A DNA stretch of 64,000 bases from assembly GCA_017520545.1 (NCBI GenBank), contig JAFXFM010000004.1:182291-246290 (forward strand). The letters run 5' to 3'. Shown in pieces: positions 1,583 to 56,372 of this stretch. Both the position numbers and the translations under genes were made by a program. Source of the DNA: Alistipes sp. GTDB taxonomy: Bacteria; Bacteroidota; Bacteroidia; Bacteroidales; Rikenellaceae. Below the pieces are notes generated by a model. It was given only the letters and a program-made list of their open reading frames with translations, ran no database searches and was not told the DNA's origin. Within the stretch, counting starts at the first letter, position 1, and the number at the start of each line of letters is the position of its first letter.

Positions 1583-4500
1583 ATGAAAAATTTGACAAAA
1601 ATTTTCACGGCGGTTGTGGCGGGAATGTTCGCATTCTCTTGCGTTACAGACACAACCGAGGACCTCGGCATTCAGGTCGGAGGTCAAGGTGGTGTAACGG
1701 AACTCACCGTTTCGTTGGAGGCGAGTAGAACTCACCTCGGCGAGAAGGCGGGCGAACTTTACCCACTCTATTGGAGCGAGGGCGATGCTATTGCAGCAAA
1801 TGGCGTAGCTTCGTACGCGCTCGAGGGTGTTGAGGAGAGCGCAAGCGCTTACTTCAAGTTCCCGCAGGAGGTTACTTATCCTCTCTGCGTTGTTTATCCT
1901 GCTTCGGCAGCAGCAACCGTTGAGGAGGGTGAGGGCGAAGGCGAGGTTACCGAGCCTGCTCCTGTTACCGCTTATCCGGTAAACTTCTTGGCTGAGCAGC
2001 CTTACACTGTTGGCACATTTGCTCCACAGGCAGCGCCAATGTACGGCTACGCAACCGAGGGCCTCAATGTTCAGCTTCAGCACCTCACCGGTGTTCTTCG
2101 CTTGGCTATCGCTGGTAATGGCGAGAAGGTAACCAGCATCGCAGTTCGTGCTCAGAAGGGCAAGATTGCTGGTGCTTACACCGTTGATTGCACTACTGGC
2201 GAGGTAACTCCAAACGCAGAGGCAGTAAGCACCTTGACCGTAACCTTTGCAGAGCCATTGGTACTCGGTGCAGAGGCTACTCCTGTTTATGTAGCTGTTC
2301 CTGCTGGACAGTACGGAACTTTCGTTATCACCGTAAACACCGAGGCTCACGAGAAGATGACCGTTAAGTTCGATAGCGACAAGAAGCCTATCAACGCAGG
2401 TACTGTTCGCGAGTTCTCCGCATTCACTTACGAGGCTAACACCAACGACTCGGAGGATACATTCATCATCGACAGCGAGGAGGCTCTTTTCGAGTTCGCA
2501 AAGATTGCTTCGGTATTCTACCCACGCACTAAGGCTGTCGTTACAGCAGACATCACCATCACCAAGCCTTGGACTCCAATCAAGGATTTCGGTGCATATG
2601 AGTTCGATGGTGGTCGCGAGGAAGGCTTCTCAATCAGTGGTTTGAACGCTCCTTTGTTCGAAACTACTGCTGCTTACATCCACAACTTGGAGTTGAAGGA
2701 TGTAAACATCACTATTACCGATCGTCTTCACTCGGGAGCTATTGCTTGCGACCTCTATGGAGACATCGACAACTGTAAGGCTACAGGTACTATCAACATC
2801 AACAACACCACTTTCAACGGTACAGCTAGCAACAACTACGACGGTATTACTCACGGTGGTTTGGTAGGTTCACTCTACGATGCAGAAGCAACTAACTGTA
2901 CTAACGACATCGATATCACCGTTACCTCGTTGGTTGCCCCTGAGAAGTCTTTGAAGGGTACTGTCGGTGGTGTAATCGGTAGTGTTAACGGTACAGAGGG
3001 TTCGACTATCTCTGGCCTCATAAACGATGGTCATATTACCTACGTAGGTAAAACTCAGATAGCAAACGTTTATATTTCGGGTATTGTTGGTAAGAATGCT
3101 GATACCAATGGTCAGACTGACATCAAGTCTATCAACAGCTGTACAAACAACGGTAACCTCTCTACCTCTGAGGATAGTGAGAGTACAGCAAGCATTCTCC
3201 TTTGCGGTATTACAGGTCGTTTGGATATTGGTGCAGATGTTGTTTGCGACAAGTTGGTAAACAATGGTGATTTGACCCACAACGGAACAGTTAAGGGTCT
3301 GTCTCTTGGTGGTCTTTTTGGCTATTCTAACAAAGTTTCGTTAACCAACAGTCAGAACACTGGTGATCTTACTGTTGCCGATGGAGCAACGGTTAGCGGT
3401 GATATTCTCCAAATCGCAGGTCTTTGTACACAAAAATTGACTGCCAACAAGTTGGAGACCTGCTCGAACAGCGGTAAGATCTATGTCGGTTCGAAGGCTA
3501 CTGCAGGTAAAAGGTCTACTATCGCAGGTCTTGTTACAGATCAGACCACTATCGGTACTGTTAGCGATTGCCACAACACTGCTGCTATCGAGGTTAAGGA
3601 TGCTACATTCGAGTCTTGGGTTATCATTGGTGGTTTGTTCGCAGGTAGTGATAATGCAACTACTATTGACACTTATAAGAACTGCTCGAACTCGGGTAAC
3701 ATCTCTGTTGCAAGCAACACTACAATTCCTAATTCGCTCCATATTGCGGGTTGTGGTGGTTACAGCTTGATTCTCAACACGTTGATGGATAATGTTGATA
3801 ACACAGGTAATATCACTGTTGGCGACAATATCGCACTCAATGGTTATCTTGCCATTGGTGGTATTGCTCGTTCTATCACCAACCACGGCGATGTTAAGAA
3901 CTGTAACAACAGCGGTGCAATTACAATTGGTAAGTGTAGCAACACTGCTACCGGTACCGGTGGTCGTTTGTATTTGGGTGGTCTGTTCTATCAGGCTTTG
4001 GGTGGTACTTTCACCAACTGCGTAAACGAGGCGACTGGCGATATCACCATTCATAGCGGCGATTGGGCATCACGCCACATTGTCGGTGGTTGGGCTTCAT
4101 ATTTCTCGTACACCGCAACTAAGCTCACCACTCTCACAAACTGCGAGAACAAGGGTGATGTAATCGATGTTCCTGCTGAGGGTTGCACTATTGAGTCTTG
4201 CGAGATTGGTGGTTTCACCGGCGAGCCTTACTCAAACCTGGCTGCTGACGAGAATGGTGCTCAGCCTACTATTGTATTCAACACCTGTAAGAACTCGGGT
4301 AATGTAACCATCGGTGGTAAGTGGACTACAAACCACAACCCAATGGTTGGTGGTTTCATTGGTGTAAACAACTACGATTGCATCGAGATGAACACTTGCG
4401 AGAACTCGGGTAATGTAACTGTTACTACTGTCGATACAGTTGCTCCTCGTGTTGGTGGTTTCGCAGGTCACGATACAAACAACGGTTGGTGGAATTTGAA

Positions 4501-6139
4501 CAACTGTACAAACAGTGGTGAGATTAAGATTGACGGCGTTGCAACCGGTCTTGCTGACGGCTACACTATTAAGTTGGGCGGTTTCGTAGGTATTAAGGAT
4601 AGTAACACTAATCTTGTCTTCTCAAATTGCAAAAATACAGGTAAGGTAACTTTGGGTGGTGAGCAGACTGCTCAGAGCACAAAGGGTTACAACTACTGCG
4701 TTGGTGGCTTCGTAGGTTATACAAGTATCGCTAAGATTACTTTCCCGGGCAGCGTAAACGGTTCGGATACTGACGCTACTAAGGGTGCTGTTACTATCGG
4801 TACTGCTAAATCGGGCGTAGGTCTTGGTGGTTTCATCGGTGTCTCTACCGTAGCAATCACTCTCGACGGCTTGAAGAACTATGGTCCTGTTCAGATAACT
4901 GGTGCTTGTGGTCAGAGCAATACTTACCGTGTTAATATCGGTGGTATCGTTGGTGTTTGCCCAGGTGTAAAACCTACAATTCAGAACTGCGAGAACTATG
5001 GTCACATAAAGTACGGTCCTACAGCATCTCTCTCTCGTGCTGACCTTGGTGGTATCATCGGTGGTACTCCTGCAGGTGCAACTATCAGCAACTGTAAGAA
5101 CGGTGGTAAGGTTGAGCATACATCAGCAACTGCTTCGGGTGAGCAGACTGTTGCAGGTATCTGCGGTTGCCCTCAGGTAGGCACAATCTTCAACGACTGT
5201 GTGAACCTCGCTTCGGCTGAGATTATCGGTGGTGGTAAGACTGGTTCGGGTTACGATGTTGCAGGTATCGGTGGTGGTCCTTCGGGCGCAGATATCGAGT
5301 TCAACCGTTGTAAGAACTACGGAACTGTTAAGCACACCGTACAGCACAGTAACTCTACCTATGTTGGTGGTATCTGTGGTTATGGCTACTCGTTTGCTAA
5401 GTTCGTTGATTGCGAGAACCACGGTCCCGTAACTACTGTAGGTTCGACTGGTACAACCTATATCGGTGGTATCGTAGGTTGGGGTCGTATTGCAGTTGAT
5501 GGAAACACGACTGCATCAACTCGTATTATGAAAGATTGCGTGAACTATGCAAGCTTTGACTTCGGTGGTAATGCAGGTGCCGGCACAATGCACGCCGGTG
5601 GTGTTGCTGGTCGTATCAACGATGAGGATGCTGAGCGTCATTGGGAGGAGATTAGCGGAAATAAGAACTATGGTAACCTCACATTCAGCAGCAATCCAAC
5701 GACTTGCTACTATGGTGGTATCTTTGGTAGCGTAAGTCTATCGGCAACTGATAACAATAACACTAAGAAGGATACAACTGACGACAAACCTAACTCGACA
5801 CCTTACGCTTTCGCTGAGATGACCGATTGCGTATGCTATGGTGATTTGACGGCTATCGGCAAGAAGGCTTCTATGTTCACAGGTGTTGCTCGTAGCGCAT
5901 CGATTAAGTTTATCAACAGTGAGGCTGGTGGTAGACTCATCTTCTCACAGACTACAACAGAGGAGGAGGATGCTAACGGTGGCGATCCAATTCAGGTTAC
6001 TACCCCTACCTACACTACGCTCACTGCGGATAACTTGAAGGATTACCTCTACTCAACTGCTATCACAGCTGAGGATATAACTGCTGATGTTATCACATTC
6101 TTGGAGAATAAACCAGCAGAGGCAACTCCTGCACAATAA
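1583..6139 (+). CDS. Giant surface lipoprotein: fimbrillin-like N-terminus plus GLUG-like repeat solenoid
   Basis: 1518 residues. I chose ATG 1583 because it starts a lipoprotein signal (MKNLTKIFTAVVAGMFAFSC, Cys20 the lipidation site); the open frame further upstream lies in the leader. Residues about 35-285 form a fimbrillin/Mfa-like module with the signature SRTHLG...YPLYWSEGD...NGVAS, an acidic EEGEGEGEV insert, and the ending GTVREF. From about residue 300 to 1480 come some 25 degenerate repeats of roughly 40-50 residues combining NCxNxGxI/V with (V/L/I)GG(F/I)xG, resembling GLUG motifs and suggesting a beta-solenoid. No T9SS C-terminal domain is seen. Likely outer-membrane anchored and surface exposed. 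An adhesin or pilus-associated role is inference; the ligand is unknown. Confidence 0.85.
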   Translation: MKNLTKIFTAVVAGMFAFSCVTDTTEDLGIQVGGQGGVTELTVSLEASRTHLGEKAGELYPLYWSEGDAIAANGVASYALEGVEESASAYFKFPQEVTYPLCVVYPASAAATVEEGEGEGEVTEPAPVTAYPVNFLAEQPYTVGTFAPQAAPMYGYATEGLNVQLQHLTGVLRLAIAGNGEKVTSIAVRAQKGKIAGAYTVDCTTGEVTPNAEAVSTLTVTFAEPLVLGAEATPVYVAVPAGQYGTFVITVNTEAHEKMTVKFDSDKKPINAGTVREFSAFTYEANTNDSEDTFIIDSEEALFEFAKIASVFYPRTKAVVTADITITKPWTPIKDFGAYEFDGGREEGFSISGLNAPLFETTAAYIHNLELKDVNITITDRLHSGAIACDLYGDIDNCKATGTININNTTFNGTASNNYDGITHGGLVGSLYDAEATNCTNDIDITVTSLVAPEKSLKGTVGGVIGSVNGTEGSTISGLINDGHITYVGKTQIANVYISGIVGKNADTNGQTDIKSINSCTNNGNLSTSEDSESTASILLCGITGRLDIGADVVCDKLVNNGDLTHNGTVKGLSLGGLFGYSNKVSLTNSQNTGDLTVADGATVSGDILQIAGLCTQKLTANKLETCSNSGKIYVGSKATAGKRSTIAGLVTDQTTIGTVSDCHNTAAIEVKDATFESWVIIGGLFAGSDNATTIDTYKNCSNSGNISVASNTTIPNSLHIAGCGGYSLILNTLMDNVDNTGNITVGDNIALNGYLAIGGIARSITNHGDVKNCNNSGAITIGKCSNTATGTGGRLYLGGLFYQALGGTFTNCVNEATGDITIHSGDWASRHIVGGWASYFSYTATKLTTLTNCENKGDVIDVPAEGCTIESCEIGGFTGEPYSNLAADENGAQPTIVFNTCKNSGNVTIGGKWTTNHNPMVGGFIGVNNYDCIEMNTCENSGNVTVTTVDTVAPRVGGFAGHDTNNGWWNLNNCTNSGEIKIDGVATGLADGYTIKLGGFVGIKDSNTNLVFSNCKNTGKVTLGGEQTAQSTKGYNYCVGGFVGYTSIAKITFPGSVNGSDTDATKGAVTIGTAKSGVGLGGFIGVSTVAITLDGLKNYGPVQITGACGQSNTYRVNIGGIVGVCPGVKPTIQNCENYGHIKYGPTASLSRADLGGIIGGTPAGATISNCKNGGKVEHTSATASGEQTVAGICGCPQVGTIFNDCVNLASAEIIGGGKTGSGYDVAGIGGGPSGADIEFNRCKNYGTVKHTVQHSNSTYVGGICGYGYSFAKFVDCENHGPVTTVGSTGTTYIGGIVGWGRIAVDGNTTASTRIMKDCVNYASFDFGGNAGAGTMHAGGVAGRINDEDAERHWEEISGNKNYGNLTFSSNPTTCYYGGIFGSVSLSATDNNNTKKDTTDDKPNSTPYAFAEMTDCVCYGDLTAIGKKASMFTGVARSASIKFINSEAGGRLIFSQTTTEEEDANGGDPIQVTTPTYTTLTADNLKDYLYSTAITAEDITADVITFLENKPAEATPAQ

Positions 6140-6166
6140 TCAAACAGAATAGTTTAACGATAAAAA

Positions 6167-6313
6167 ATGTTGAAGACTATGAAAAAGACAGTTTTGAGCT
6201 ATTCTGCTCCACAGATTGATATTTTTGAGGTTGTAGCCGAAAGAGGCTACATCGTAAGCACAGGAACGTCGCTCCCAGGTTTCACCGGCGAGGAAGACGA
6301 TTTGATTTACTAA
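6167..6313 (+). CDS. 48-residue peptide gene behind the giant lipoprotein
   Basis: A 49-codon frame starting 27 bases after the lipoprotein stop and ending just before a strong terminator, so it should be on the same transcript. The ATG at 6179 (MKKTVLSYSAPQIDIFEV) is an equally good start and gives 44 residues. The middle YSAPQIDIFEVVAERGYIVS and the acidic end TGEEDDLIY resemble short, unnamed Bacteroidales proteins (Y-x-A/P-P-x-I-x-[hydrophobic] pattern) that I recall beside fimbrillin-like genes. There is no signal peptide or membrane segment. No maturation enzyme is nearby. Function unknown. Confidence 0.7.
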   Translation: MLKTMKKTVLSYSAPQIDIFEVVAERGYIVSTGTSLPGFTGEEDDLIY

Positions 6314-6318
6314 AAACC

Positions 6319-6355
6319 AAGAGGCTCGGAGATTTCCGAGCCTCTTTGATTTTTA
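6319..6355 (+). terminator. Rho-independent terminator after the peptide gene
   Basis: A perfect 12-bp stem, AAGAGGCTCGGA (6319-6330) with TCCGAGCCTCTT (6335-6346), a GATT loop, then a T-rich tail. Confidence 0.9.
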
Positions 6356-6357
6356 GC

Positions 6358-6383
6358 AAAACGGAAAACGGAAAACGGAAAAC
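6358..6383. repeat. GGAAAAC short tandem repeat
   Basis: Tandem AACGGAAA units. The same A-rich unit recurs at 19639-19668, 53874-53920 and 54073-54120, always in spacers. Confidence 0.75.
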
Positions 6384-6385
6384 TT

Positions 6386-6414
6386 TTAGCCGAGCGATAA
6401 TATCGCTCGGCTAA
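6386..6414 (-). terminator. Palindromic hairpin downstream of the antiporter gene
   Basis: TTAGCCGAGCGATA (6386-6399) and TATCGCTCGGCTAA (6401-6414) form a 14-bp near-perfect palindrome. In the leftward direction it is followed by AAAAGTTTTCC, a partial U-tract, which fits the end of the leftward transcript. Between hairpin and stop codon lies a TTTTGCATTCTGCATT motif like the array at 54.1 kb. Confidence 0.6.
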
Positions 6415-6445
6415 TAATTTTGCATTCTGCATTTCTCTCTGTACC

Positions 6446-7897: not shown

Positions 7898-7976
7898 TTT
7901 TACGCTATTTTTTGTTGTCGAAAAGGTGTATCGCAATAATTGAGCCACTTTTATTTTCACTTTATTGCGCATATTC

Positions 7977-8008
7977 TTTCATTTTTTCCAAAAAAGTTAG
8001 TACCTTTG
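7977..8008 (+). promoter_or_regulatory. Promoter of the phosphoesterase lipoprotein
   Basis: TTTC (7977-7980), then 20 bases, then a perfect TACCTTTG -7 element (8001-8008), 21 bases before the ATG at 8030. Confidence 0.65.
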
Positions 8009-8029
8009 TGCGGATAAACCTGTTAAACT

Positions 8030-10495
8030 ATGAAGCGATTTATTTACACCATTGCAACTATCGTTGTAGCAACTGTTATGTTGGGTTGCCAAACTGACCC
8101 TACAACAACGCCTATTGCAGGCGAAAATGTAACTACTCTTTCGATTTCGTTGGAGCCTTCGCGTACTTCGCTCGGCGTAAAAGAGGGCGACACCTACCCC
8201 GTATTTTGGAGCGAGAACGATCGCATCGTAATGAATGGCGTAGCATCGCAAGTGGCGACAATCGACGCAACAAATAAAAGCGTAGCTACATTCACCGTTC
8301 CTGCCGTATTGAACCCACCGTACAGCATCACCTATCCTTACACCGAGGGACTTGCTGAGTCAAAGGTGCTCTTCCTGAGCGAGCAGCCATACACAGCGGG
8401 TACTTTTGCGCAGAACTCTACGCCGATGTGTGGTTACACCAACGACTCTGATCCGAATGTGCAGATGAAGCACCTCACCGGTATTTTGCGATTACCTGTT
8501 AAGGCGGCAAACAGTGGCGCAGTTCTCGAAAAAATCGTTATCACTTCGCTCGATGGCGTAAAGCTCGCAGGTGAGTTCGACGTAAACTGCACAAACGCAA
8601 CAATCACAGCGAGTGCGAATGCCGTAGAGAGTATAACCTACACCTTGCCGGCAAACTTCACACTCTCGACAACTACCGAGAGCGTATTCCACATCGCAGT
8701 TCCTGCTGTCGAGATTGGCGCGTGTCAAATCGACTTCATAGAGGCTTCGGGCGACAAGATGACTCGCACTTTGAGCAACCGCACAATTAAGCCGGGTGTC
8801 GTTCGCGAGTTTAAGACCATCACACACCAGCCTGGTGTAGGTGGCGAATTGGAGGCATTGGATTCGTACGAGGACGAGTTCGAAATCTACTACGACAAGG
8901 TTTATGGTTATGTGAAGGACACAAACGGAAACCCTATCGCGGGTGTAGCCGTAAGCAACGGATTCCAAGTTGTAGCAACCAACGCAAATGGTTACTACGA
9001 GATGAGCGTTACACCAGACACTTGGTACATCTACATCTCAACACCTGCCGAGTATAAAATTGATACCAACGAGTATGGACAGCCTTGCTTCTACAAGCCT
9101 TATCCAACCAACACTCCACAGTACGACTTTACACTCACTCCGCTCGAGGGTGGTAAGGAGGAGAAGTTTGCTCTCTTTGCTATTGGCGACCCACAGGTGC
9201 GCAACTCTACACAGTTGAGCCGTTTCAATGCCGAGGCTGTACCTGCACTTCTCAACCACAGCACAGAGGTTAAGGCGCAGGGCATACCTTGCTACGGTAT
9301 CACCTTGGGCGACATCATTGCCAACAGCAACGGTACCAACACCGAGTCGTTGCGCGACGATATGCGTGATGGTTTCCACCCTGATAAGGCGGGTATGATT
9401 GTCTACCAGACCTACGGCAACCACGACAACACCTACTATGGCGACGGTGTAGTAATCACGACCGACAAGCGTAGTTCTACTATTGAGTTGGCGGCGCAGC
9501 GTGGCCACGAGGCGATTTTTGGCCCTGTGGACTACTCGTTCAATCGTGGCGACATCCACATCGTAAGTATGCGTAACATCATCTATCGTTACAGCACCAC
9601 CAGCGGCAGTTACTTGGAGGGTTTCCTCCCTGCGCAGTACGAGTGGTTGAAGCAGGATTTGGCTCTCGTGCCGAAGGATAAGATGGTTATTTTGTGCGTT
9701 CACGCACCTCTATTCCGTAACACCGGAAACTATGTTGAGGAGGTTTTGACAGAGATTAACAAGTTTAAGGAGGCTCACGTCATATCGGGACATACCCACA
9801 TCTCGCATTACTATGACTTTATTACCGAGGATCCATCGACCCCTTATCCAAATGTATTCGAGCATAATGTTGGTGCATTGTGTGGTGTATGGTGGAGAGG
9901 TAATATCGCCGCTGACGGAGCTCCTACCGGATACAACGTATTCGTATGCGAGGGCAACGAGTTCACCGAATCGTACTTTATGGGTATAAACGAAGGCTTG
10001 AACAACAAGGAGATTCAGATGCGCCTACATCGCGGAAATGCTATTACAGGTAGAGCGAAGTTGGATACCGACACTTACGAGAATGTTGGCTACTACGCCT
10101 TCAACTTCGGCGAGGATGTATTGATTGCCAATGTATACTATGTGGATAGAATAGTAAACATCAGCGTTTATGAGGACGATGTATATAGTGGCGAAATGGT
10201 ACAGATAGGATATGGCACAAAACCAACCTCGGCAGATCTCGTAGGCGATCGTTCGCTCGAAAATCCTCGCCGAATGAAAGATGGTCTTGAATATGCTATC
10301 GATATGTACACCGCAGCATTCTACTACAACTATTACAGCGGTCGTTCGGCTTGGAGCGATTGTACCCACCTCTACAAGTATCAGTTGAAGAATAAGGATG
10401 CCAATATCAAGGTTGTATTGACCGACCGCTACGGCAAAACCTATACCCAAACGAAGATCACCGAGGGTACCGACTACTCGTTGGTTGCACGATAA
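8030..10495 (+). CDS. Lipoprotein with fimbrillin-like N-terminus and calcineurin-like phosphoesterase
   Basis: 821 residues. The lipoprotein signal MKRFIYTIATIVVATVMLGC puts the lipidated Cys at 20. Residues about 35-275 are a fimbrillin/Mfa-like module (SLEPSRTSLG...YPVFWSENDRIVMNGVAS, ending PGVVREF) homologous to the N-terminus of the 1583 gene. Residues about 290-345 form a CarboxypepD-reg-like beta-sandwich (GYVKDTNGNPIAGVAVSNG). Then comes a metallophosphoesterase with its metal ligands visible: GDPQ (Asp387), GDII, GNHD (His465) and GHTH (587-590). The C-terminal 200 residues fit the domain that follows these enzymes in Bacteroidetes. Expected to hydrolyse phosphoesters at the cell surface or in the periplasm; the substrate is unknown. 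Confidence 0.88.
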   Translation: MKRFIYTIATIVVATVMLGCQTDPTTTPIAGENVTTLSISLEPSRTSLGVKEGDTYPVFWSENDRIVMNGVASQVATIDATNKSVATFTVPAVLNPPYSITYPYTEGLAESKVLFLSEQPYTAGTFAQNSTPMCGYTNDSDPNVQMKHLTGILRLPVKAANSGAVLEKIVITSLDGVKLAGEFDVNCTNATITASANAVESITYTLPANFTLSTTTESVFHIAVPAVEIGACQIDFIEASGDKMTRTLSNRTIKPGVVREFKTITHQPGVGGELEALDSYEDEFEIYYDKVYGYVKDTNGNPIAGVAVSNGFQVVATNANGYYEMSVTPDTWYIYISTPAEYKIDTNEYGQPCFYKPYPTNTPQYDFTLTPLEGGKEEKFALFAIGDPQVRNSTQLSRFNAEAVPALLNHSTEVKAQGIPCYGITLGDIIANSNGTNTESLRDDMRDGFHPDKAGMIVYQTYGNHDNTYYGDGVVITTDKRSSTIELAAQRGHEAIFGPVDYSFNRGDIHIVSMRNIIYRYSTTSGSYLEGFLPAQYEWLKQDLALVPKDKMVILCVHAPLFRNTGNYVEEVLTEINKFKEAHVISGHTHISHYYDFITEDPSTPYPNVFEHNVGALCGVWWRGNIAADGAPTGYNVFVCEGNEFTESYFMGINEGLNNKEIQMRLHRGNAITGRAKLDTDTYENVGYYAFNFGEDVLIANVYYVDRIVNISVYEDDVYSGEMVQIGYGTKPTSADLVGDRSLENPRRMKDGLEYAIDMYTAAFYYNYYSGRSAWSDCTHLYKYQLKNKDANIKVVLTDRYGKTYTQTKITEGTDYSLVAR

Positions 10496-46642: not shown

Positions 46643-48154
46643 CTATTTCACTATTCTCAGTAATTTATATATATGATATCTTTCATTTTTTGACATCCCC
46701 ATAAAAAACATCAATAATAGGATAGTGCATATGCAAACCATCGCACATATAGCCGAATACCAAAATTCTGACTTTAGTCCTTCATTCAACACATAAAACA
46801 AAGAGGCAACACCAAAACATATCAAACTTGGCAATATCACATTTATAAAGTATTTAGTAATGGAAATGCTCGTAACTTTATGCACCAACGCAACTATTAA
46901 ACAGAGGTTTACAAGTTCAAAAAATATCATAGAAACAAATGCAAAAGAGTATGGTGCGCCACTCTTTAATCCTATATAAGTTGCCAATAAAGGCATTGCA
47001 AGCACAATACCCTCAGTTATTTGATAAGTTCTCATTTTACCACTTGCCAAAAATAATGTATTGATTGGCGAATGGAATGCTCTTACCAACGAGTGATACA
47101 TAACTAAATGAACAAACAACACCGTATATTCCGGTACTTCTCCCAACCACAATTGTAACAGCGGTTGCGTTAAAAACACAACAATTACGACCAACACTAG
47201 TTGTATTATAAAGAAAACCTTCGATGAGAAAAAGAATACATCAGAAACCCTCTTCATATCACCAGCAGCATACGATTTAACGCTATGAGGATTTATAACG
47301 ACCGCAATATTTGAAACGAAATGGGAAAGAACAGCAGACACCTGATATGCTATATTTCTTGCTGCATTTACAACTGGACCGCCAAATACATTAAGCAGCA
47401 TATTTAACCCATTGTTTGTTATTGCAAACGATGTATTTCCAAAGAAGTTCCATCCTGCAATACTAAACATCTCTTTCATAAGGGATTTATCCCAACAAAG
47501 AGCGAAATGGCTCTCTTCAAATTTATGTTTACAGTACACTCCATTTGCTATTCGCATTATTACCGCAATAAGTAATTGAAGTACTCCATAGAGGATTAAT
47601 TTATCTGTTTTGACGATAATTAGCATGTAAGCAGATAGCAACTTCAACAACGCCTCGGCTATTGACATATACGCATACACCCCCATTTTTTCTCTTGAAA
47701 TAATCACGGCATCATACGGAATCGTCATAATCGTTATGACCGCTGATACTATCGAGAATTGTAACACATAATGTGCTGCCACCATGCGCTCAGGCGCGAT
47801 ATTGGCTTTATATTCAAGAAACCATATTCCTATTGCTTCCGAAAGAATACAAAATAAAATTGCGACACATAGATGTATTATAACGCTAGTGGAAAATACA
47901 TCTCTCATTTTTGATGTATTTCCTCTGCCAGACTCATAATTCAAGAAACGCTGCGTTGCGCTGGAAAACATCCCGCGCAACGAGCTAAAAAAAGCAACTA
48001 CACTACCAACAACGCTATATACACCATAGTCTTCAACACCTAGTTGTTGCAAAACAACTCTGGAAGTATATAAGGTCACAACCATCAATACCGCCATACG
48101 TAAATACATATATACGGTATTTTTGGCAAGTCGGGAAAATGTAGATAGTGCCAC
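46643..48154 (-). CDS. Polysaccharide flippase (Wzx, PST family)
   Basis: 503 residues, about 12-14 membrane segments. RLAKNTVYMYLRMAVLMVVTLYTSRVVLQQLG and the GVEDYGVYSVVGSVV region are typical of the MATE/PST-type Wzx. It moves undecaprenyl-PP-linked repeat units to the outer leaflet. One base separates it from the polymerase start (TAGTATG). AT-rich DNA. Specificity is expected for the repeat unit encoded by the neighbouring genes. Confidence 0.88.
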   Translation of the reverse strand: MALSTFSRLAKNTVYMYLRMAVLMVVTLYTSRVVLQQLGVEDYGVYSVVGSVVAFFSSLRGMFSSATQRFLNYESGRGNTSKMRDVFSTSVIIHLCVAILFCILSEAIGIWFLEYKANIAPERMVAAHYVLQFSIVSAVITIMTIPYDAVIISREKMGVYAYMSIAEALLKLLSAYMLIIVKTDKLILYGVLQLLIAVIMRIANGVYCKHKFEESHFALCWDKSLMKEMFSIAGWNFFGNTSFAITNNGLNMLLNVFGGPVVNAARNIAYQVSAVLSHFVSNIAVVINPHSVKSYAAGDMKRVSDVFFFSSKVFFIIQLVLVVIVVFLTQPLLQLWLGEVPEYTVLFVHLVMYHSLVRAFHSPINTLFLASGKMRTYQITEGIVLAMPLLATYIGLKSGAPYSFAFVSMIFFELVNLCLIVALVHKVTSISITKYFINVILPSLICFGVASLFYVLNEGLKSEFWYSAICAMVCICTILLLMFFMGMSKNERYHIYKLLRIVK

Positions 48155-48169
48155 GGATTAGTCTAACTT

Positions 48170-49441
48170 TTACAACCTTCCATCAACGATCTCGCGTGGC
48201 AATACGCCCTTAACATCGTAGATTATCGAGTTCCCCTTCACGAGCGATGAAACATTCAATGCCTTAAATTCATTGTGGGCTACAGCCATTATCGCTGCGT
48301 CAAACTTATCTGTTGGCAACTCGTTTGTTACAACAAGTCCATACTCATGTTCTGCAATTGCAGGGTTTGCCCAAGGATCATAAATAGTGATATTCAAGTT
48401 ATACTCTTTCAGGGCATTTACAATATCTACAACCTTCGTATTACGAACATCCGGACAGTTCTCCTTAAATGTAAAGCCAAGTATCACGATATTTGAATGC
48501 AACACCTGAATACCCTTTTTCAGCATCAGTTTAATAACCTGATTAGCAACATACTCGCCCATACCGTCATTCATACGGCGACCTGCCAAAATGATCTCTG
48601 GATTATAACCATATCGTTGAGCGCACTGTGCCAAGTAGTATGGGTCAACGCCAATGCAATGACCACCGACCAGACCCGGCTTAAATGGCAAGAAGTTCCA
48701 TTTTGTAGAGGCTGCCTCCAAAACATCAAGAGTATCAATACCCATCTTTGTAAATATTCTAGACAACTCGTTTACGAAGGCGATATTGATATCGCGCTGC
48801 GAATTCTCAATAACCTTCGCTGCTTCTGCAACTTTGATTGTTGGAGCGAGATGTGTTCCAGCCGTAATAACCGATGAATAAACTTCATTTACATACACTC
48901 CAATCTCCGGAGTCGAGCCCGATGTAACCTTCTTAATCTTCTCTACGGTATGCAACTTATCTCCCGGGTTTATACGCTCTGGTGAATATCCAGCAAAGAA
49001 GTCCTCGTTAAATTTCAATCCACTAACCTTCTCCACAACAGGGAGGCACTCGTCCTCGGTAACGCCTGGGTAAACAGTAGATTCGTACACCACAACATCT
49101 CCCTTCGAAATAACTTTACCAACAGTAGTACTTGCGCCATACAATGGTGTTAAATCGGGATTATTGTTCTCATCAACAGGAGTTGGTACTGCAACAACAT
49201 AAAAGTTACAATCCTTGATATCCTCCAACTTGGTAGTGCATACAAATCCGTGGTTGTTTATTGCATCCTGCAACAGTTCATCACTAACCTCAAGTGTAGA
49301 ATCGTGTCCAGCCATCAACGCATCAACTCTACGCTGACTCATATCAAAACCAATTGTGGGATATTTTGTTGAGAACAATCGAGCCAGAGGCAATCCTACA
49401 TAGCCAAGTCCGATAACACAAATTTTAGTCTCTTTTTTCAT
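48170..49441 (-). CDS. UDP-GlcNAc C6 dehydrogenase, TviB-like
   Basis: 423 residues. NAD-dependent nucleotide-sugar dehydrogenase: [21 protein letters not shown]-like [12 protein letters not shown], and the catalytic Cys in [16 protein letters not shown]. The sequence is nearer the TviB/WbpO branch (UDP-GlcNAc or UDP-GalNAc to the uronic acid) than to UDP-glucose dehydrogenase, which is present separately at 50450. The TviC-like epimerase lies 12 bases upstream, matching the tviB-tviC pair of Vi antigen. Confidence 0.9.
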
Positions 49442-49453
49442 ATTTTCTAAAGT

Positions 49454-50428
49454 TTACAAATTATTCTTATACCACTCTATTGCCTCATTAAGGCCTTGCT
49501 CAAAATCATATTCGGGGTCATAACTCAGCATCTTTTGAGCCTTCGATATGTCTGCATTAGAATGCTTAATATCCCCCTTTCTATCAGGACCAAAAATGGG
49601 CTCAATATCCTTTCCAAGAGCCTTTGTCAAAGCATAGTAAATATCTATCAAATATTCGCGACCGCCATATGCGATATTGAACGCCTCGCCTGCATACTCA
49701 CTCGATGCCAAGCAGGCCTTCAAATTCGCTTCAATAACATTCTCTATGTAGGTAAAATCGCGGCTTTGTTTACCATCACCATTTATGGTTGGCTGCTCAT
49801 CGTTGAGTAACTGCTTGATAAACTTTGGTATTACGGCTGCATATGCTCCGTATGGATCTTGACGACGACCAAATACATTGAAATAACGCATCCCGTACGT
49901 ATCCAGGCCATAATGCTTTGTATATTGTTTTGCCCACTCCTCGTCGCAACGTTTTGTTAGAGCGTATGGAGAAAGCAAGTTTCCTTCAACACCTTCCTTC
50001 TTTGGCAAATGAGCCTCATCTCCATAAACCGAAGAACTCGAAGCATACACAAACTTCTTGACACCGCACTGACGGGCTGCCTCCAACATATTGAGAGTAC
50101 CTTGAATGTTGTTGGCACAATAAAATAAAGGCATTTCGATGGAACGAGGCACACTACCCCAAGCTGCTTGATTAAGAACAAAATCTACACCTTCGCACGC
50201 TTTAAGGCATACATCTAGCTCCTTAATATCTCCCTTAATAAATTCATAGTTTGGGTTGTCGATAAACATATCAACATTAGCCTGTTTACCCGTACTTAAA
50301 TCGTCCAAACAGCGAACACGATAACCCATATTGAGTATCGCTTCGCATAGATTAGAACCAATAAAACCTGCTCCGCCTGTCACCAAAAAAAGTGAATCCT
50401 TCGGAAAAACTAAATGTTTGTAAGCCAT
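49454..50428 (-). CDS. UDP-GlcNAc/GlcNAcA 4-epimerase, TviC/WbpP-like
   Basis: 324 residues. Extended SDR: LFLVTGGAGFIGSNLCEAI, YASSSSVYGDEAHLPK and SPYALTKRCDEEW (YxxxK). The pair with the TviB-like dehydrogenase suggests UDP-GlcNAcA to UDP-GalNAcA conversion or a UDP-GlcNAc/GalNAc epimerase supplying it. Cytosolic. Placed between ugd and the dehydrogenase gene. Confidence 0.9.
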   Translation of the reverse strand: MAYKHLVFPKDSLFLVTGGAGFIGSNLCEAILNMGYRVRCLDDLSTGKQANVDMFIDNPNYEFIKGDIKELDVCLKACEGVDFVLNQAAWGSVPRSIEMPLFYCANNIQGTLNMLEAARQCGVKKFVYASSSSVYGDEAHLPKKEGVEGNLLSPYALTKRCDEEWAKQYTKHYGLDTYGMRYFNVFGRRQDPYGAYAAVIPKFIKQLLNDEQPTINGDGKQSRDFTYIENVIEANLKACLASSEYAGEAFNIAYGGREYLIDIYYALTKALGKDIEPIFGPDRKGDIKHSNADISKAQKMLSYDPEYDFEQGLNEAIEWYKNNL

Positions 50429-50449
50429 ATACTTATTGTGTTAATTTGA

Positions 50450-51658
50450 TTAATCCCGTCCAAAGACATCTCGTGTGTAGACCTTCTCGGCGACATCGGA
50501 GAGAAGGTCGTCGGTACGATTGGCTAAAATTACGCCCGAGATGCTTTTAAATCTTTCTATATCATTCACTACCTCGCAATCGAAAAACTTCTCTCCATCT
50601 TGCAATGTCGGTTCGTAAATCACTACCTCGGCACCCTTCGCCCGCAATCGGCGCATTATGCCTTGTATCGCGCTATGGCGAAAGTTATCCGAGTCGGTCT
50701 TCATCGTCAAACGGTATATTCCTACCACCGTTGCCTCCGCTGCGCACATCTGCTCCGCCTTTCGCAACACCTGCTCCGCAATAAAATCTTTTCGAGTTCT
50801 GTTGCTTTCAACTATCGCCGACATCATATTCTGCGGCACATCGTCATAGTTCGCCAGCAACTGCTTTGTATCCTTCGGCAAGCAATATCCCCCATATCCA
50901 AACGAAGGGTTATTGTAGTGCGTACCAATGCGAGGATCCAACCCCACCCCCTCGATTATCGCCTTCGTGTCAAGCCCCTTAATCTCGGCATAGGTATCCA
51001 GCTCATTGAAATAACTCACTCGCAGTGCCAGATAGGTGTTTGCAAATAGTTTTACCGCCTCCGCCTCGGTCAATCCCATAAAGAGCGTTGGAACATTATC
51101 CTTCAAGGCTCCCTCTTGTAGCAGCTTGGCAAAAGAGTGTGCCGCATCATTAAGCTGCGCATCATTTTCGGGGCGTCCCACGATAATACGGCTCGGATAG
51201 AGATTGTCGTACAGAGCCTTATTCTCTCGCAGAAACTCGGGCGAAAAAAGCAGATTATTGGTATTGTATTTCTGTCGTGCTGCCTCAGTAAATCCAACCG
51301 ATACAGTCGATTTAATGACCATTATCGCCTTGGGATTTGCCTCCAACACCGTTTTTATCACCGCCTCCACAGCCGAGGTATCGAAGAAGTTCTTTTGCGG
51401 GTCGTAGTTTGTAGGAGCGGCAATCACAACAAAATCGGCATCGCGATATGCCGACTTTGCATCGAGCGTTGCTCGAAGATTTAAATCCTTTTCCGAGAGG
51501 TATCTCTCGATATACTCATCCTGAATAGGCGAGATTCGACGATTTATCTTCTCGACCTTTTCGGGTACTACGTCCACCGCAACAACTTCGTTATGCTGGG
51601 CAAGCAATGTCGCCATCGACATCCCCACATAACCCGTACCTGCTACTGCGATTTTCAT
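50450..51658 (-). CDS. ugd: UDP-glucose 6-dehydrogenase
   Basis: 402 residues from ATG 51658 ([20 protein letters not shown]); the frame extends 8 residues upstream without a credible start. Catalytic Cys in [19 protein letters not shown]. It makes UDP-glucuronic acid. This is the short 390-410 residue bacterial form. It follows the WecA-type gene by 10 bases and probably feeds GlcA to the polysaccharide or to another glycan. Confidence 0.93.
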
Positions 51659-51668
51659 TTTGTGAAAT

Positions 51669-52892
51669 TTATTTAAAATCAACGATTTTCTGCAATGAGA
51701 GCCAACCCTTATTCTCCTCGAAATGAGAGAACTTTCCGATACGTTTTAAGAGGCGGAAAAGAGCGGTATTACGCTTCTGACTTACCCTCACTAACTTATA
51801 AAATCCCGCCGTAAGTGCAATTCCTACACCCATTACGACATAGAACTGAACATCTATTGACGCTCCCATTTTATAGGTTGCATACCAAGCAAGAACAACC
51901 AGTATATTCAAGAGCAACTCGCTAACCGTAGTTCCAAAGTGCGAATATCCAAGTTCGATAAACAGATGGTGAAGATGCGTTTTATCCGGATGAAATGGCG
52001 ATGTTCCTCGGAGTATTCGCACAACCATAACCCTCACCGTATCGAAAACCGGCACACACATTACCGCGAGGGTAAATGGTACAACACCGAAGCCTTCCGA
52101 CACAAATTTCTCACAACCGCTACCCGATGTAACAGCCACTACAACATACGTAGACATCACCACGCCCATCATCAGCGAGCCACCATCTCCAATAAACATT
52201 TTTGATGTTTTGCCAAAAACATTGTGGAAGAAGAAAGGCAACAAAGAGCCTACCGCCAACGAACACAACATAAGCATCAGATAATCTCCGGTGCGATAGA
52301 ACAACACCCCGAAAGCGGCACTTGCCATAATGCAATAACCCGAAGATAGTCCATCTACCCCGTCCACCAGATTTATTGCATTGATTATACCGACAACAGC
52401 AACTATGGTCAATGGAATTGAAACCCACAAAGAAACTTCATCTACCCCCCATAGTCCCTGAAAATCATTCAACGACACCTTTGTCCAGAATATCAGCATA
52501 ACCGTGATCGCTATTTCAACCAAGAAACGCAATTTCGGAGAGAGTTCCGACACATCATCGGCAATGCCCACACCAAGCATAATCGACATAGCCAGAAACA
52601 TCGGAAGAATACCCACGACATTGAGCGGAGTATACTGCACATCACAAGCGCACTCCCTGATAATCAGCGGAGCAAACGCCTCGTAAAGTCCAGCCGTAAA
52701 GAGTCCCACGACCAAACCAAAAAACACCGCAACACCGCCCAAAACTGGAACGGGATTTCGCTGCAACTTTCTAGCATCCGGATTATCCACGATTTGTCGC
52801 TTCACTGCAAAGTCCACCACTCGCGGATAGACCAATGTTACCGCAACCAATGCAGCAACAAACGCGACCAACACTCCGACCAAGCCCATCAT
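51669..52892 (-). CDS. WecA/TagO-type polyprenyl-phosphate GlcNAc-1-phosphate transferase
   Basis: 407 residues, about 11 membrane segments. MraY/WecA family motifs: [44 protein letters not shown] and [10 protein letters not shown] (HIHH-type). It initiates glycan synthesis by moving a HexNAc-1-P to undecaprenyl phosphate. Start codons at 52892 and 52889 are adjacent, and the first is kept. First gene of the 22-kb leftward locus, with a TAnnTTTG element 37 bases upstream. Confidence 0.92.
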
Positions 52893-52928
52893 AGCTATTT
52901 TTGTTTAAAGGGGGTTATTTGTTTTTAC

Positions 52929-52936
52929 CAAAGGTA
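52929..52936 (-). promoter_or_regulatory. -7 element of the polysaccharide operon
   Basis: A perfect TACCTTTG on the reverse strand, 37 bases before the WecA-type start; the -33 position has only TATG (18-base spacer). The remaining 52937-53370 is AT-rich and gene-free except for the two homopolymers listed below. Confidence 0.5.
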
Positions 52937-53182
52937 AATGCTTTTTTCGATTTACATATTTGCGTAACAGAATTTCACAACAGGGCACACCTCTGGGGCT
53001 TTGGCAATAATATAACACACTGATTTACAGCGTTTTATCGCCAACAACACGGATTTAACCAACAACTAAAACTGAAAATAAAACTTTTAGAGCGTCCAAT
53101 CCCGTTACACTAATACGTCGCAAATGTAAGCAATTATTCTTAGAATAACAAATTTGCAGATACTTTTTTGGTAGAAAAAATC

Positions 53183-53316
53183 GGGGGGGGGTAATTTGTT
53201 GATTTACAAACGGTTACACAACGATAATTTTCCACAACATAAATAACCGTCGCAAAAACCCTCAAACAACCTCAATATCAAAACTTTTCAGATACAGAAA
53301 TTCGGCACCCCCCCCC
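53183..53316. repeat. Facing G9 (53183-53191) and C9 (53308-53316) homopolymers
   Basis: Nine consecutive G then, 116 bases later, nine consecutive C, so the pair is an inverted repeat of 9 bp without further flanking complementarity. It lies in the 478-base gap upstream of the polysaccharide operon and 55 bases or more before the TspO stop. Such tracts are prone to slipped-strand change. No coding frame crosses them. Confidence 0.75.
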
Positions 53317-53370
53317 ATAAAATCGCATATCAGAGAGGCGTTATTTCAAGAAGATATGCAAACCACATTC

Positions 53371-53826
53371 TCAATTATTTATGCACACATACGCATTGAG
53401 ATAGGTTGCAAAAAGCAGCCACAAAAAGTATGGCACGAAAAGCCACGCCGCCGCCATTCTTCTGTTTGCCGAATAGATAATATAAGCAAGCACCGTAACA
53501 TCGAGCGCGAGTATCATCAAAAGTCCCATAAACGGGCTACGGAGTGCAAAGAAGCAGACACTCCAAAGAAAGTTTAAAAGCAACTGCAACAGCCACAGAC
53601 GCATAACGCTCATATCTCCACGCACCAGCATTGTACCGGCCGAGATACCAATCAGCAGATAGAGAATACTCCACGCAATAGGAAAAATTATTGCAGGGGG
53701 TGTGGCAGGCGATTTGACTATATAAGGATACCACTCTTGGAGCGCATCACCCTGAATATACGAACCGAGCGCACCTATGGCAAAGGCGAGCACTATGGGG
53801 ACAAAATAGGCAAAAAACTTTTTCAT
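53371..53826 (-). CDS. TspO/MBR family protein
   Basis: 151 residues with five membrane helices, the size of bacterial TspO. Conserved positions: GALGSYIQGD near the first loop, WYPYIVKSPATPPAIIFPIAWSILY (the W-x-P-x-P-P and WSILY core) and LNFLWSVCFFALRSP. It binds porphyrins or cholesterol-like ligands in other organisms and may function in tetrapyrrole or stress signalling. Stands alone; no adjacent partner. Confidence 0.9.
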   Translation of the reverse strand: MKKFFAYFVPIVLAFAIGALGSYIQGDALQEWYPYIVKSPATPPAIIFPIAWSILYLLIGISAGTMLVRGDMSVMRLWLLQLLLNFLWSVCFFALRSPFMGLLMILALDVTVLAYIIYSANRRMAAAWLFVPYFLWLLFATYLNAYVCINN

Positions 53827-53873
53827 AATCGCATTGATTTTGTACCAACTCCTGCAAAGAGCAGACCAAACAA

Positions 53874-53920
53874 ACTGAAAACGGAAAACTGAAAACGGAA
53901 AACTAAAAACTGAAAACGGA
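53874..53920. repeat. GGAAAACTGAAAAC repeat, left block
   Basis: Alternating ACTGAAA / ACGGAAA units, the family described at 6358, between the TspO start and the dimer repeat below. Confidence 0.8.
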
Positions 53921-53938
53921 CCGCCGCGATTAAGTCGA

Positions 53939-54069
53939 GAGCAGAGACTGCTTGCAGGCTATGCCAAGACGGAGCGGTGAAGCCCGAAGGGCAACCGACG
54001 CACGAAGCAAGAGCAGAGGGTGCTTGCACACTATGCCTTGCAAGAAGGAGGAAAAGCCTGCGAAGCAGG
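53939..54069. repeat. Tandem pair of 55-60 bp GAGCAGAG repeats
   Basis: Two copies (53939-53992 and 54011-54069) offset by 72 bases share GAGCAGAG-NN-TGCTTGCA-NN-CTATGCC, then GGAG and AAGCC. Each can fold (CTGCTTGCAG-like stems). No coding frame is convincing. With the flanking repeat blocks it fills 53827-54184. Confidence 0.7.
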
Positions 54070-54072
54070 ATT

Positions 54073-54120
54073 AAAACGGAAAAGTGAAAACTGAAAACGG
54101 AAAACTGAAAACGGAAAACT
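54073..54120. repeat. GGAAAACTGAAAAC repeat, right block
   Basis: AACGGAAA/AACTGAAA units as in the left block. Confidence 0.8.
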
Positions 54121-54121
54121 G

Positions 54122-54160
54122 ATTTTGCATTCTGCATTCTGCATTTTGCATTTTGCATTC
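54122..54160. repeat. TTTTGCATTCTGCATT array
   Basis: Five or so 7-9 base units of (T)TTTGCAT/TCTGCAT. The last TTTG units can serve as -33 boxes for the adjoining promoter. A related TTTTGCATTCTGCATT is at 6418-6433, and ATTTTGCATT occurs inverted at the right window edge. Confidence 0.8.
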
Positions 54161-54176
54161 CAAATTCCTATCTTTG
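54145..54176 (+). promoter_or_regulatory. Promoter of the VTT/DedA-like gene, built on the TTTTGCATT array
   Basis: The array unit TTTG (54145-54148), 20 bases, TATCTTTG (54169-54176). With start about 5-7 bases after the -7 box, the mRNA would begin within a few bases of ATG 54185, nearly leaderless. Confidence 0.65.
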
Positions 54177-54184
54177 TCCCCGCT

Positions 54185-54631
54185 ATGGAGTGGTTGTTGG
54201 ATTTAGGATATGCCGGACTATTTATCGGGTCGTTTTTGGCAGCGACGATATTCCCATTCAGCGCAGATGTATTGTTGGTGGGTATGCTCGTTGCGGGAGG
54301 CTCGCCGTGGGTGGTTATCGGTACAGCCACAGCCGGCAATTTCATAGGCGGTCTGACCTCCTATGGCATTGGTCGCATCGGCAAGTGGGAGTGGATCGAA
54401 AAACTCGGCGTTAAGCCCGAGACTCTCGAAAAGCAGAAGGCGAAGGTCGATAAGTATGGTGCGTGGGTGGCACTGCTCTCGTGGGTGCCATTTATTGGCG
54501 ACGTCCTCGCCGTAGCACTCGGCTTCTACCGCACAAAATTCCTCCCATCGGCATTTTTTATGTTTATCGGCAAATTCGGTCGCTTTGTAGCGTGGTACTA
54601 CATCTGGCTACTCACCGCAAACAACTTATAA
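54185..54631 (+). CDS. VTT-domain (DedA/YqaA-like) membrane protein
   Basis: 148 residues. I chose ATG 54185 because the upstream 20 codons of the frame run through the TTTTGCATT array and the promoter. Membrane segments at about 5-40, 44-66, 96-118 and 128-146; FIGSFLAATIFPFSADVLLVGML and TATAGNFIGGLTSYGIGRIG match the YqaA/DedA group. The family includes lipid-carrier translocases; the function here is undetermined. Inner membrane. Confidence 0.83.
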   Translation: MEWLLDLGYAGLFIGSFLAATIFPFSADVLLVGMLVAGGSPWVVIGTATAGNFIGGLTSYGIGRIGKWEWIEKLGVKPETLEKQKAKVDKYGAWVALLSWVPFIGDVLAVALGFYRTKFLPSAFFMFIGKFGRFVAWYYIWLLTANNL

Positions 54632-54704
54632 TCAACAAAAAAGAGCGTATTTCTACGCCCTCAATTGCAATCAGCAAAGTATCATTGTTGGGCAACTTCT
54701 GCCG

Positions 54705-56372
54705 TTATTCCAGTCTGATAATCGAATATACCGGATAGTGATCCGAACAATAGGTCGTATTGTTGTACTGCTCGTTTATGGTGTGATACTCCACAACCTT
54801 CAAATAGTTACTACAATAGATGTGGTCAATAATGCTATGCTTGCTATCCGTGTAGCCGTTATACGTGGTATTATAGTCGGTCAATGCCACAGGTGCAACC
54901 TCACGAGTATTATACAGATACGACTCTACTACATCCATTGCCTCGTGGTCGGAGGTCATATTAAAGTCGGCAGTGAGAAACAATAAGTGATCCTTTCTAT
55001 ACTTCTGAAAGAAGCGTGACACGACCTTCATACCCTCAATTTTCGCCGCCTCTACTTGATGGTCGATATGGGTATTTATGTAGCAGAATTTCTTGCCCGT
55101 AGCCTTATGCTTAAAGATACCCCACGTCGCACATCTGCAATAGTTTGCGCCAAAGCCCTTCGAAGGTTCATCGGGGGTTTCAGAGAGCCAGAAAGTTCCG
55201 CCGTCCAACTTCTCGACCACTCTCTTATTATACAATATGCCCATTGTTTCACCATTGCCGCTCTCCTTGCCGTCATCGCGATTTACACCAAAACCCGAGT
55301 ACTCTTCGGCGAGTTGCTCTTTCAGATAGGTCCAATGGTATGCATACTTCGCCTCCTGAACGCCAATTAGAGTCGGCATATGGTCTTTGAGAAGTGCCAC
55401 ACAGGCCTCCTTGCGACTATCCCAAGTAATTCCCGGATGATTCGACTCGGTGAGCGCCGTGCGCACATTGAAACTGATAATTTTCACCTCGTCTGCACTC
55501 GCATACTTCTTGAATGTCGGCACCGACACATCGCGCAACTCCAACTCGCACGGCAACCCCTTGTCGTAGAAAATAGTCTTAAACTCCTGCACCACGCCCC
55601 TTGGCAGTGCCTCGCTCGGACTCCAAGTAGCGGTCATTTTCTCGCCTGAAGCCTCTACAAACTCAATCGTACAATCGCCAATCTCACCCGCAGGAACAAC
55701 CATATACAGGTCGCTTATTTCGGCAGCCAACAAAGTGTAATTTGTCGGGAAAGTACAGGTTGTCTTACTCTTACAACTATTTGTTGCAGAGATTGTTGCA
55801 TTTCGGCAATCAACCGCGAACACACCCGACAGCATCGCGCCCGAAGTAGAGGTTACAACAACCTCTTTCAGATTGACGCTCCTACCCTTCGCCTTGACAG
55901 GAAAATGCAAAATTGCCGATAGGTGTTGAAGGGTAATTTTTTTGCCATTCTCGGCATAACCGCACATTGGCGCACTATTTGGCGATATAGTTCCATCGAC
56001 GAACTCCTGCGTCGCAGGGAACTCCACATAGGTCTTTTCTGCCGAGGTAAACGAGCAGAATGGATATGTCACGCTATATGGGGCAGCAATGTCGCTCTCG
56101 GGAAATTCAAACTCGGCAGTCGGCTTGTTATGCTCGTCTGCTGAAACCTCGTCGGACAACTCGCCATTTACGACAACTTGGTCGCCTATGCTCCAATGGG
56201 TTGGGTAGATATGGTTGTCGTCGCCTGCACCTAACAAGGTACGAGTGGTTTGCGGGAGCGAGATGGTCAGCGTACGATCGTCCTGAACATCAACGCTTTC
56301 ACCGCCATTATCGGGCTGACAACCCACAACGATGATGGATATAGCCGCCAATATAGGCAGAACTCTATTCAT
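54705..56372 (-). CDS. Lipoprotein with fimbrillin-like N-terminus and endonuclease/exonuclease/phosphatase domain
   Basis: 555 residues from ATG 56372; 10 upstream codons are discarded because the lipoprotein signal MNRVLPILAAISIIVVGC (Cys18) starts there. Residues about 35-275 are the fimbrillin-like module (TRTLLGAGDDNHIYPTHWSIGDQVVVNG, ending RGVVQEFKTI), third occurrence in this window. Residues about 295-555 are an EEP-fold metallohydrolase: SFNVRT, QEAKYAYHW, NTHIDH, TADFNM and the C-terminal SDHYPV. Probably an exposed phosphodiesterase or nuclease; substrate unknown. Confidence 0.87.
   Translation of the reverse strand: MNRVLPILAAISIIVVGCQPDNGGESVDVQDDRTLTISLPQTTRTLLGAGDDNHIYPTHWSIGDQVVVNGELSDEVSADEHNKPTAEFEFPESDIAAPYSVTYPFCSFTSAEKTYVEFPATQEFVDGTISPNSAPMCGYAENGKKITLQHLSAILHFPVKAKGRSVNLKEVVVTSTSGAMLSGVFAVDCRNATISATNSCKSKTTCTFPTNYTLLAAEISDLYMVVPAGEIGDCTIEFVEASGEKMTATWSPSEALPRGVVQEFKTIFYDKGLPCELELRDVSVPTFKKYASADEVKIISFNVRTALTESNHPGITWDSRKEACVALLKDHMPTLIGVQEAKYAYHWTYLKEQLAEEYSGFGVNRDDGKESGNGETMGILYNKRVVEKLDGGTFWLSETPDEPSKGFGANYCRCATWGIFKHKATGKKFCYINTHIDHQVEAAKIEGMKVVSRFFQKYRKDHLLFLTADFNMTSDHEAMDVVESYLYNTREVAPVALTDYNTTYNGYTDSKHSIIDHIYCSNYLKVVEYHTINEQYNNTTYCSDHYPVYSIIRLE

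Follow-up and report, generated by a model that had tools for sequence, protein, structure and literature searches.

Why would a single bacterial genome join one N-terminal module to three unrelated C-terminal halves? The question is raised by three lipoprotein genes, here called A, B, and C, in a 64,000-nucleotide stretch of Alistipes sp. DNA (the window), which forms the end of one contig (C3) of a genome of 1.93 Mb that is 92% complete. Based on predicted models and fold searches, we favor the view that the module has the type V pilin fold (FimA/Mfa superfamily) and forms the front half of a paralogous lipoprotein family built like tip pilins. We assign this core reading a probability of roughly 0.62, a figure that covers both of its versions, in which the module is either left uncut or cut at a conserved residue, and that overlaps with our estimate for the first of them. 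The three genes and their parts are as follows.

1583 to 6139, plus strand: protein A, a lipoprotein of 1518 amino acids with a predicted pilin-fold module and a GLUG-type repeat half
1640 to 2434, plus strand: predicted pilin-fold module of A, Cys20 to about residue 284
1727 to 1729, plus strand: Arg49 codon of A, the conserved Arg/Lys after strand 1 and a candidate maturation site (role suggested by passages of PMC4789730 and PMC5789003)
8030 to 10495, plus strand: protein B, a lipoprotein of 821 amino acids with a predicted pilin-fold module and a calcineurin-type phosphoesterase
8087 to 8857, plus strand: predicted pilin-fold module of B, Cys20 to about residue 276
8162 to 8164, plus strand: Arg45 codon of B, in the low-confidence loop after strand 1
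8906 to 9136, plus strand: MetallophosN domain of B (Pfam)
9137 to 9802, plus strand: calcineurin-like catalytic domain of B with GDPQ, GD, GNHD, and GHTH motifs (Pfam match 9305 to 9802)
9860 to 10444, plus strand: MetallophosC domain of B (Pfam)
54705 to 56372, minus strand: protein C, a lipoprotein of 555 amino acids with a predicted pilin-fold module and an EEP hydrolase
55563 to 56321, minus strand: predicted pilin-fold module of C, Cys18 to about residue 270
56241 to 56243, minus strand: Arg44 codon of C, the conserved Arg/Lys after strand 1
54738 to 55478, minus strand: EEP catalytic domain of C (solved relatives 3mpr, 4c1r, 3g6s, and 3l1w)

One Module on Three Unrelated C-Terminal Halves

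The initial annotation had proposed that the three lipoproteins begin with a lipobox and one common module of about 240 residues. The lipobox and the common module are borne out, with the lipobox cysteine at residue 20 in A and B and at residue 18 in C. BLASTP comparisons of the first 290–300 residues give 35% identity for A and B (E 4e-47), 31% for A and C (E 1e-31), and 39% for B and C (E 8e-62), a similarity that also contradicts the suggestion that the three modules might prove to be unrelated folds. The length needs revision to about 255 residues after the cysteine, and the second of the sequence landmarks said to recur in all three varies, B reading WSEND instead of WSxGD.

No real similarity exists among the C-terminal parts (best BLASTP E 0.006, over 33 residues). 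Pfam places MetallophosN, Metallophos, and MetallophosC in B and Exo_endo_phos in C, each above its cut-off, and the matches of A to GLUG (12.4 bits; cut-off 20.5) and M26_N (21.7 bits; cut-off 27.7) fall below theirs. A paralogue of A with the same module (L113, 10512–13877) reaches the GLUG cut-off with 77.5 bits. The proposal of three unrelated C-terminal halves therefore stands, with the calcineurin and EEP halves assigned by Pfam and the GLUG-type half of A below cut-off.

The Module Is Predicted to Have the Pilin Fold

The AlphaFold2 model of the module (pLDDT 89) is a predicted two-domain beta-sandwich of the pilin type. In a fold search it matched 24 Protein Data Bank (PDB) chains at E≤1e-3; every one comes from Bacteroidales, and almost all bear the titles of fimbrial or adhesion proteins. 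The earlier label of "fimbrillin-like" is thus upheld, the best fold matches being Bacteroidales pilins and pilin-like proteins. A model of full-length B (pLDDT 87, pTM 0.68) consists of the module, a link at residues 260–266 with pLDDT under 50, and the calcineurin part, which folds independently in the model; Foldseek returned pilins for one half and Rv0805, purple acid phosphatases, and GpdQ for the other.

The module of B meets no Pfam cut-off, NCBIfam has no match for the modules of A, B, or C, and a PDB sequence search with the module profile gave three matches that are meaningless (best E 0.58). Mfa_like_1 (PF13149, Fimbrillin-like), whose fold the module is predicted to have in common, matches just 2 of 15 scanned modules of this genome at E≤5; the best E-value (0.0023) is that of B, whose 18.4 bits do not reach the gathering cut-off of 27. 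A profile relative, L061, scores 43.3 bits with the same model over residues 110–295, inside its match to the module profile at residues 16–295.

Sixteen Copies and Their Distribution

A profile built from 15 modules (A1) detects 16 strong copies in the genome, all with E 2e-60 or better. Of six further, weak matches, two represent the end of a module lying at the start of a contig. The C-terminal halves of the 16 comprise six calcineurin halves (B and five others), one EEP half (C), eight of GLUG type, and none in one case (L119). Six of the GLUG-type copies were read directly: A; L113, L114, L115, and L118 by Pfam or BLAST; and L117 by eye alone, its C-terminal half having no Pfam or BLAST match. 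The other two are inferred: each is truncated by a contig end, and 118 bases at these ends recur unchanged in contigs that read into GLUG-type frames. This identity shows a repeat common to two GLUG-type genes. A shufflon was considered from the same contig ends and rejected, because such an overlap is an assembly-graph remnant at a repeat and not an inversion. Breaks at the module/GLUG junction occur at the end of L111 and at the starts of L112, L123, and L124 (contigs C15, C8, and C9).

The module profile matches 34 of 37 searched genomes of the genus (this one included) and 1 of 24 genomes from other families of the order, both at E≤1e-3. With a wider profile at E≤1e-15, matches occur in 43 of 120 genomes of the family and in 6 of 22 genera. 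Scanning named genomes yielded 37 loci. Of these, 32 come from records titled Alistipes sp. or Rikenellaceae bacterium, and the other five from records titled Bacteroidia or Bacteroidales; the hosts, where stated in the 32 titles, are yak, sheep, water deer, or water buffalo. The initial annotation had suggested searching Bacteroidales for the module on other enzymes. In relatives, Pfam finds it joined to a NAGPA phosphodiester glycosidase (L091, 5881–7599) and also to BspA-type leucine-rich repeats (LRR; L054 and L063), DUF5074 (L055), and GLUG (L058). For several other proteins in the scan, Pfam had no match. Separately, two lipoproteins encoded side by side in L121 (158–4736) have fronts that are weakly Mfa-like and C-terminal halves that resemble propellers (PQQ_2 and Beta-prop, below cut-off).

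A Conserved Arg/Lys at the Position of Pilin Maturation

We compared 68 full modules (67 distinct; E<1e-35, both profile ends present), leaving out partial and weaker ones. All 68 have the lipobox cysteine, and the residue after strand 1 is Arg in 60 and Lys in the remaining 8. In a MAFFT alignment, this Arg/Lys column is common to six Mfa-type proteins (five from the window genome, and L061). In the model of B, the Arg loop is the sole inner stretch of low confidence.

According to passages of PMC4789730, FimA, Mfa1, Mfa3, and Mfa4 mature after an arginine at positions 43–53, and in related structures the loop that joins strands 1 and 2 contains an Arg or a Lys. Passages of PMC5789003 locate Arg43 of Mfa3 where strand 1 ends, describe the anchor Mfa2 as uncut, and state that trimming has not been reported for the tip protein Mfa5. 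The conserved Arg/Lys of the modules occupies the position of pilin maturation and is a candidate site for cleavage.

These data are best read as describing probable surface lipoproteins that resemble type V tip pilins in build and that, in 7 of the 16 copies, have an enzyme as the C-terminal domain. Tip pilins with C-terminal binding domains are known. As described in PMC12632263, PMC5789003, and PMC4789730, type V pilins of Bacteroidota, and tip pilins in particular, resemble the window proteins in having a lipobox, two beta-sandwich domains, Arg/Lys where strand 1 ends or in the loop that follows, and an extra C-terminal domain. The window family differs in that enzymes or repeats, with phosphoesterases in those seven copies, replace a shown ligand-binding domain, and in that the window module scores below the Mfa_like_1 cut-off.

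Two further points call for caution. First, a pilus-like operon exists on contig C8 (L125, 1646–10999), encoding a DUF3575/OmpA protein, a DUF5119 protein, three Mfa_like_1 proteins above cut-off, and a protein of 1122 residues, and none of the 16 strong copies lies with it, unlike tip pilins, which are encoded with anchor and stalk pilins. The Pfam models for Mfa2 and FimA have no match in the genome, one control having responded for each. Second, the neighboring Thr, Leu, and Gly share the conservation of the Arg, and the turn may therefore have a structural role. With all 16 copies lying away from the pilus-like operon, and with fiber assembly only a possibility, we do not classify the proteins as tip pilins.

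How the module would act can be proposed in outline. The proteins are probably lipidated and exported to the cell surface. Acidic residues follow the lipobox cysteine at a mean of 2.1 Asp/Glu in 8 residues (54 of the 68 modules parsed), a measure other than the exact published pattern of the lipoprotein export signal (LES). At the surface, the module may hold the C-terminal half off the membrane as an uncut spacer. Alternatively, it may be cut at the Arg/Lys by a surface protease specific for these residues, such as the genome's own C11 clostripain-family lipoprotein, to give a fiber or tip subunit.

The first option, that of a passive spacer that is never cut and lifts the C-terminal half off the membrane as proposed for the N-terminal domains of DUF1735, BACON, and SusE/F proteins, is one of the two versions of our core reading and is possible, if tentative. 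As described in passages of PMC11216935, DUF1735 has the same layout of a lipoprotein N terminus, many copies per genome, and varied, interchangeable C-terminal halves that include GLUG; the flexible link in the model of B and the location of the copies away from the pilus-like operon also fit a spacer. However, DUF1735 and BACON spacers are Ig-like sandwiches instead of pilin folds, and according to PMC11216935 97.8% lie in polysaccharide utilization loci. A spacer alone also leaves unexplained why a column at the pilin maturation position holds only Arg or Lys in all 68 modules, and why modules occur alone in L119, L105, and L106.

A bolder reading is that of enzymatic pili, in which the surface clostripain would cut at the Arg/Lys, strand 1 would leave, and phosphoesterase-bearing modules would join fibers by donor-strand exchange. 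We regard this as doubtful. If true, it would give the cell a surface organelle that strips phosphate from glycans, and exchange would keep the modules of one genome mutually compatible while the enzymes diverge. A single C11 frame occurs in the genome; it is 687 residues long and opens with a lipobox-like sequence. The C25 model has no match in the genome, but no control responded, so this is no proof of absence. A clostripain-family C11 lipoprotein-like gene (L128, 3231–5291) was observed about 3 kb from a module-calcineurin gene.

The same protease might instead release the enzyme, cutting at the Arg/Lys to shed it from the lipid anchor. Fragipain frees surface lipoproteins in Bacteroides fragilis (passages of PMC12632263), and the single C11 gene would suit such a role, yet a cut here would remove strand 1 and open a groove, which looks like an assembly device and not a clean release site. 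We therefore consider release unlikely.

Adhesive fibers with binding domains at their tips are how type V pili have been described. A pilin-fold front end joined to phosphoesterases would extend these pili, or at least their fold, to displayed catalysis. No report of a pilin-enzyme fusion was found among the titles and abstract openings listed in searches of open-licence literature, which is not proof of absence.

Occasional Exchange of Modules Between Genes

The initial annotation had called the module a mobile cassette. This is supported in the sense of recombination or gene conversion by conflicting trees and by one tract of near identity; as for a mobile element, none was seen, and no dedicated search was made. 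In a tree of the 68 modules (quick search, one support value), types of C-terminal half are largely clustered, so most copies look like duplications and some like swaps. Four EEP modules, including that of C, are nested in a calcineurin set of 27 rows (support 96), which suggests that an EEP half replaced a calcineurin half there, or the reverse. The more distant EEP modules of L103 and L105 are placed elsewhere.

Trees of modules and of enzymes conflict when built for the same 26 calcineurin proteins. In three of the seven genomes with at least two of these copies, two paralogues combine sister modules with enzymes from separate groups; these are the L074 pair, the L076 pair, and L082/L083. 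The enzyme data reject each module pair in approximately unbiased (AU) tests (p 4e-29, 2e-7, and 1.5e-79, respectively), and the module data reject three tested enzyme groupings (p 1.5e-73, 8e-4, and 7e-4), all of these p-values being optimistic because the groups were picked after the trees were seen.

The clearest case is the tandem pair of L074, where about 600 module bases are 96–100% identical in 75-base steps and the enzymes are 61% identical (36–84% by steps). This core could be a metagenome assembly error, of which the L076 and L082/L083 pairs (modules 58% and 69% identical) are independent. The B locus has syntenic counterparts in L071, L072, and L074, with the same transporter upstream and the same lipoprotein downstream; these three have two calcineurin genes where the window genome has one. 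The pairs in L071 and L072 are not homogenized (modules 49% and 52%). Thus, modules are indeed exchanged between paralogues, if only occasionally, in a manner that resembles gene conversion, which would at times re-pair modules with C-terminal halves. A Bacteroidota lineage could in this way re-pair a display module with other C-terminal halves without an obvious mobile element. Transposition was considered as the cause of the spread and set aside, because recombination accounts for the trees and identity profiles; no dedicated transposition test was made.

Another possibility is that module recombination is selected for changing the exposed surface, in response to phages or host immunity, with the enzymes as passengers. 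The discordant trees fit this idea, as does a module far more divergent than the enzyme in some pairs (51% versus 82% identity for B and the L074 gene; 46% versus 77% for L113 and L087). However, C and L089 differ evenly in their two halves (79% and 81%), and the exchange that is seen makes paralogues alike, not different. We find this explanation quite improbable.

Enzymatic Halves and Their Possible Substrates

The domain order of B is that of calcineurin-like proteins with PF16371, PF00149, and PF16370, and its predicted fold is that of Rv0805, purple acid phosphatase, and GpdQ; a PDB sequence search with the calcineurin half gave no match at E≤0.001. All 26 calcineurin halves of more than 520 residues contain GNHD and GHxH motifs (at any position in the half, with Ser allowed for Gly in GHxH). 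The first motif is DPQ in 20 of the 26 by our own pattern, unlike DxH, which we take to be the standard form. The EEP half of C is similar to 3mpr (E 3e-30) and 4c1r (E 5e-30), and also to 3g6s and 3l1w, with motifs kept. 4c1r was deposited as a mannosyl-6-phosphatase, and presumably takes part in the use of yeast mannan by Bacteroides.

Might the module be simply an ordinary domain of homologous enzymes, needed for catalysis? Modules on calcineurin halves do mostly group together. Against this, solved EEP chains such as 4c1r and 3mpr, at 257–298 residues, have no module (though the constructs may have been trimmed), the similarity of seven other calcineurin-type frames in the genome to B begins only at residue 277 or later and the module profile does not match them, and the module also occurs on GLUG, LRR, DUF5074, and NAGPA halves. 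A known internal enzyme function, the outcome that the initial annotation had named as fatal to its proposal, is accordingly not favored, and we judge this reading very improbable. In L006 (C13:73309–74916), a calcineurin part lacking a module match lies in an 888-residue frame adjoining a module-calcineurin gene.

Modules and EEP domains also occur together in gene runs of three distant Bacteroidales records.

L104, 1049–7197: module/EEP gene run (isolate RUG14078)
L105, 234–12366: module/EEP gene run (isolate RUI276)
L106, 148–9569: module/EEP gene run (isolate RUG12551)

These isolate names presumably denote rumen sets. Genes are common to the three, in the same order: the first encodes a protein that matches the module weakly (domain E 6e-8 to 3e-4) and also has a repeat half, and the second encodes a protein with two EEP stretches. 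L105 and L106 continue with an EEP-like protein (by BLAST only), a module alone, a module with EEP, and a module with a GLUG-like half (below cut-off or by BLAST), after which L105 has an EEP+GH97 protein. L104 holds the first two genes and, separated from them by about 1 kb, a module+EEP fragment. Modules and EEP domains thus associate beyond fusion, and the GH97 domain points to glycans. The loci encode several module proteins and no shown anchor or stalk pilin.

A phosphorylated glycan is the inferred substrate. Phosphate esters, most likely on such glycans, would be hydrolyzed outside the cell by the calcineurin and EEP halves, and the GLUG halves would bind or extend. Surface phosphoglycan processing is offered as a functional hypothesis for calcineurin and EEP lipoproteins that have been named by fold alone.

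Upstream Elements and Neighboring Genes

Each of A, B, and C has one TANNTTTG element within 400 bases upstream, where 0.2 is expected. This sequence is the -7 consensus of Bacteroides according to passages of PMC12632263.

1452 to 1459, plus strand: TANNTTTG element (Bacteroides -7 consensus) upstream of A
8001 to 8008, plus strand: TANNTTTG element upstream of B
56400 to 56407, minus strand: TANNTTTG element upstream of C

A scan for sigma-70-type promoters in the region of C gave no excess over chance. On the minus strand at 46643–52892 of the window, genes resembling a surface polysaccharide cluster were recognized by eye (flippase-like, two UDP-sugar dehydrogenase-like, epimerase-like, and glycosyl-phosphate transferase-like), and this minus-strand run continues down to about 27 kb.

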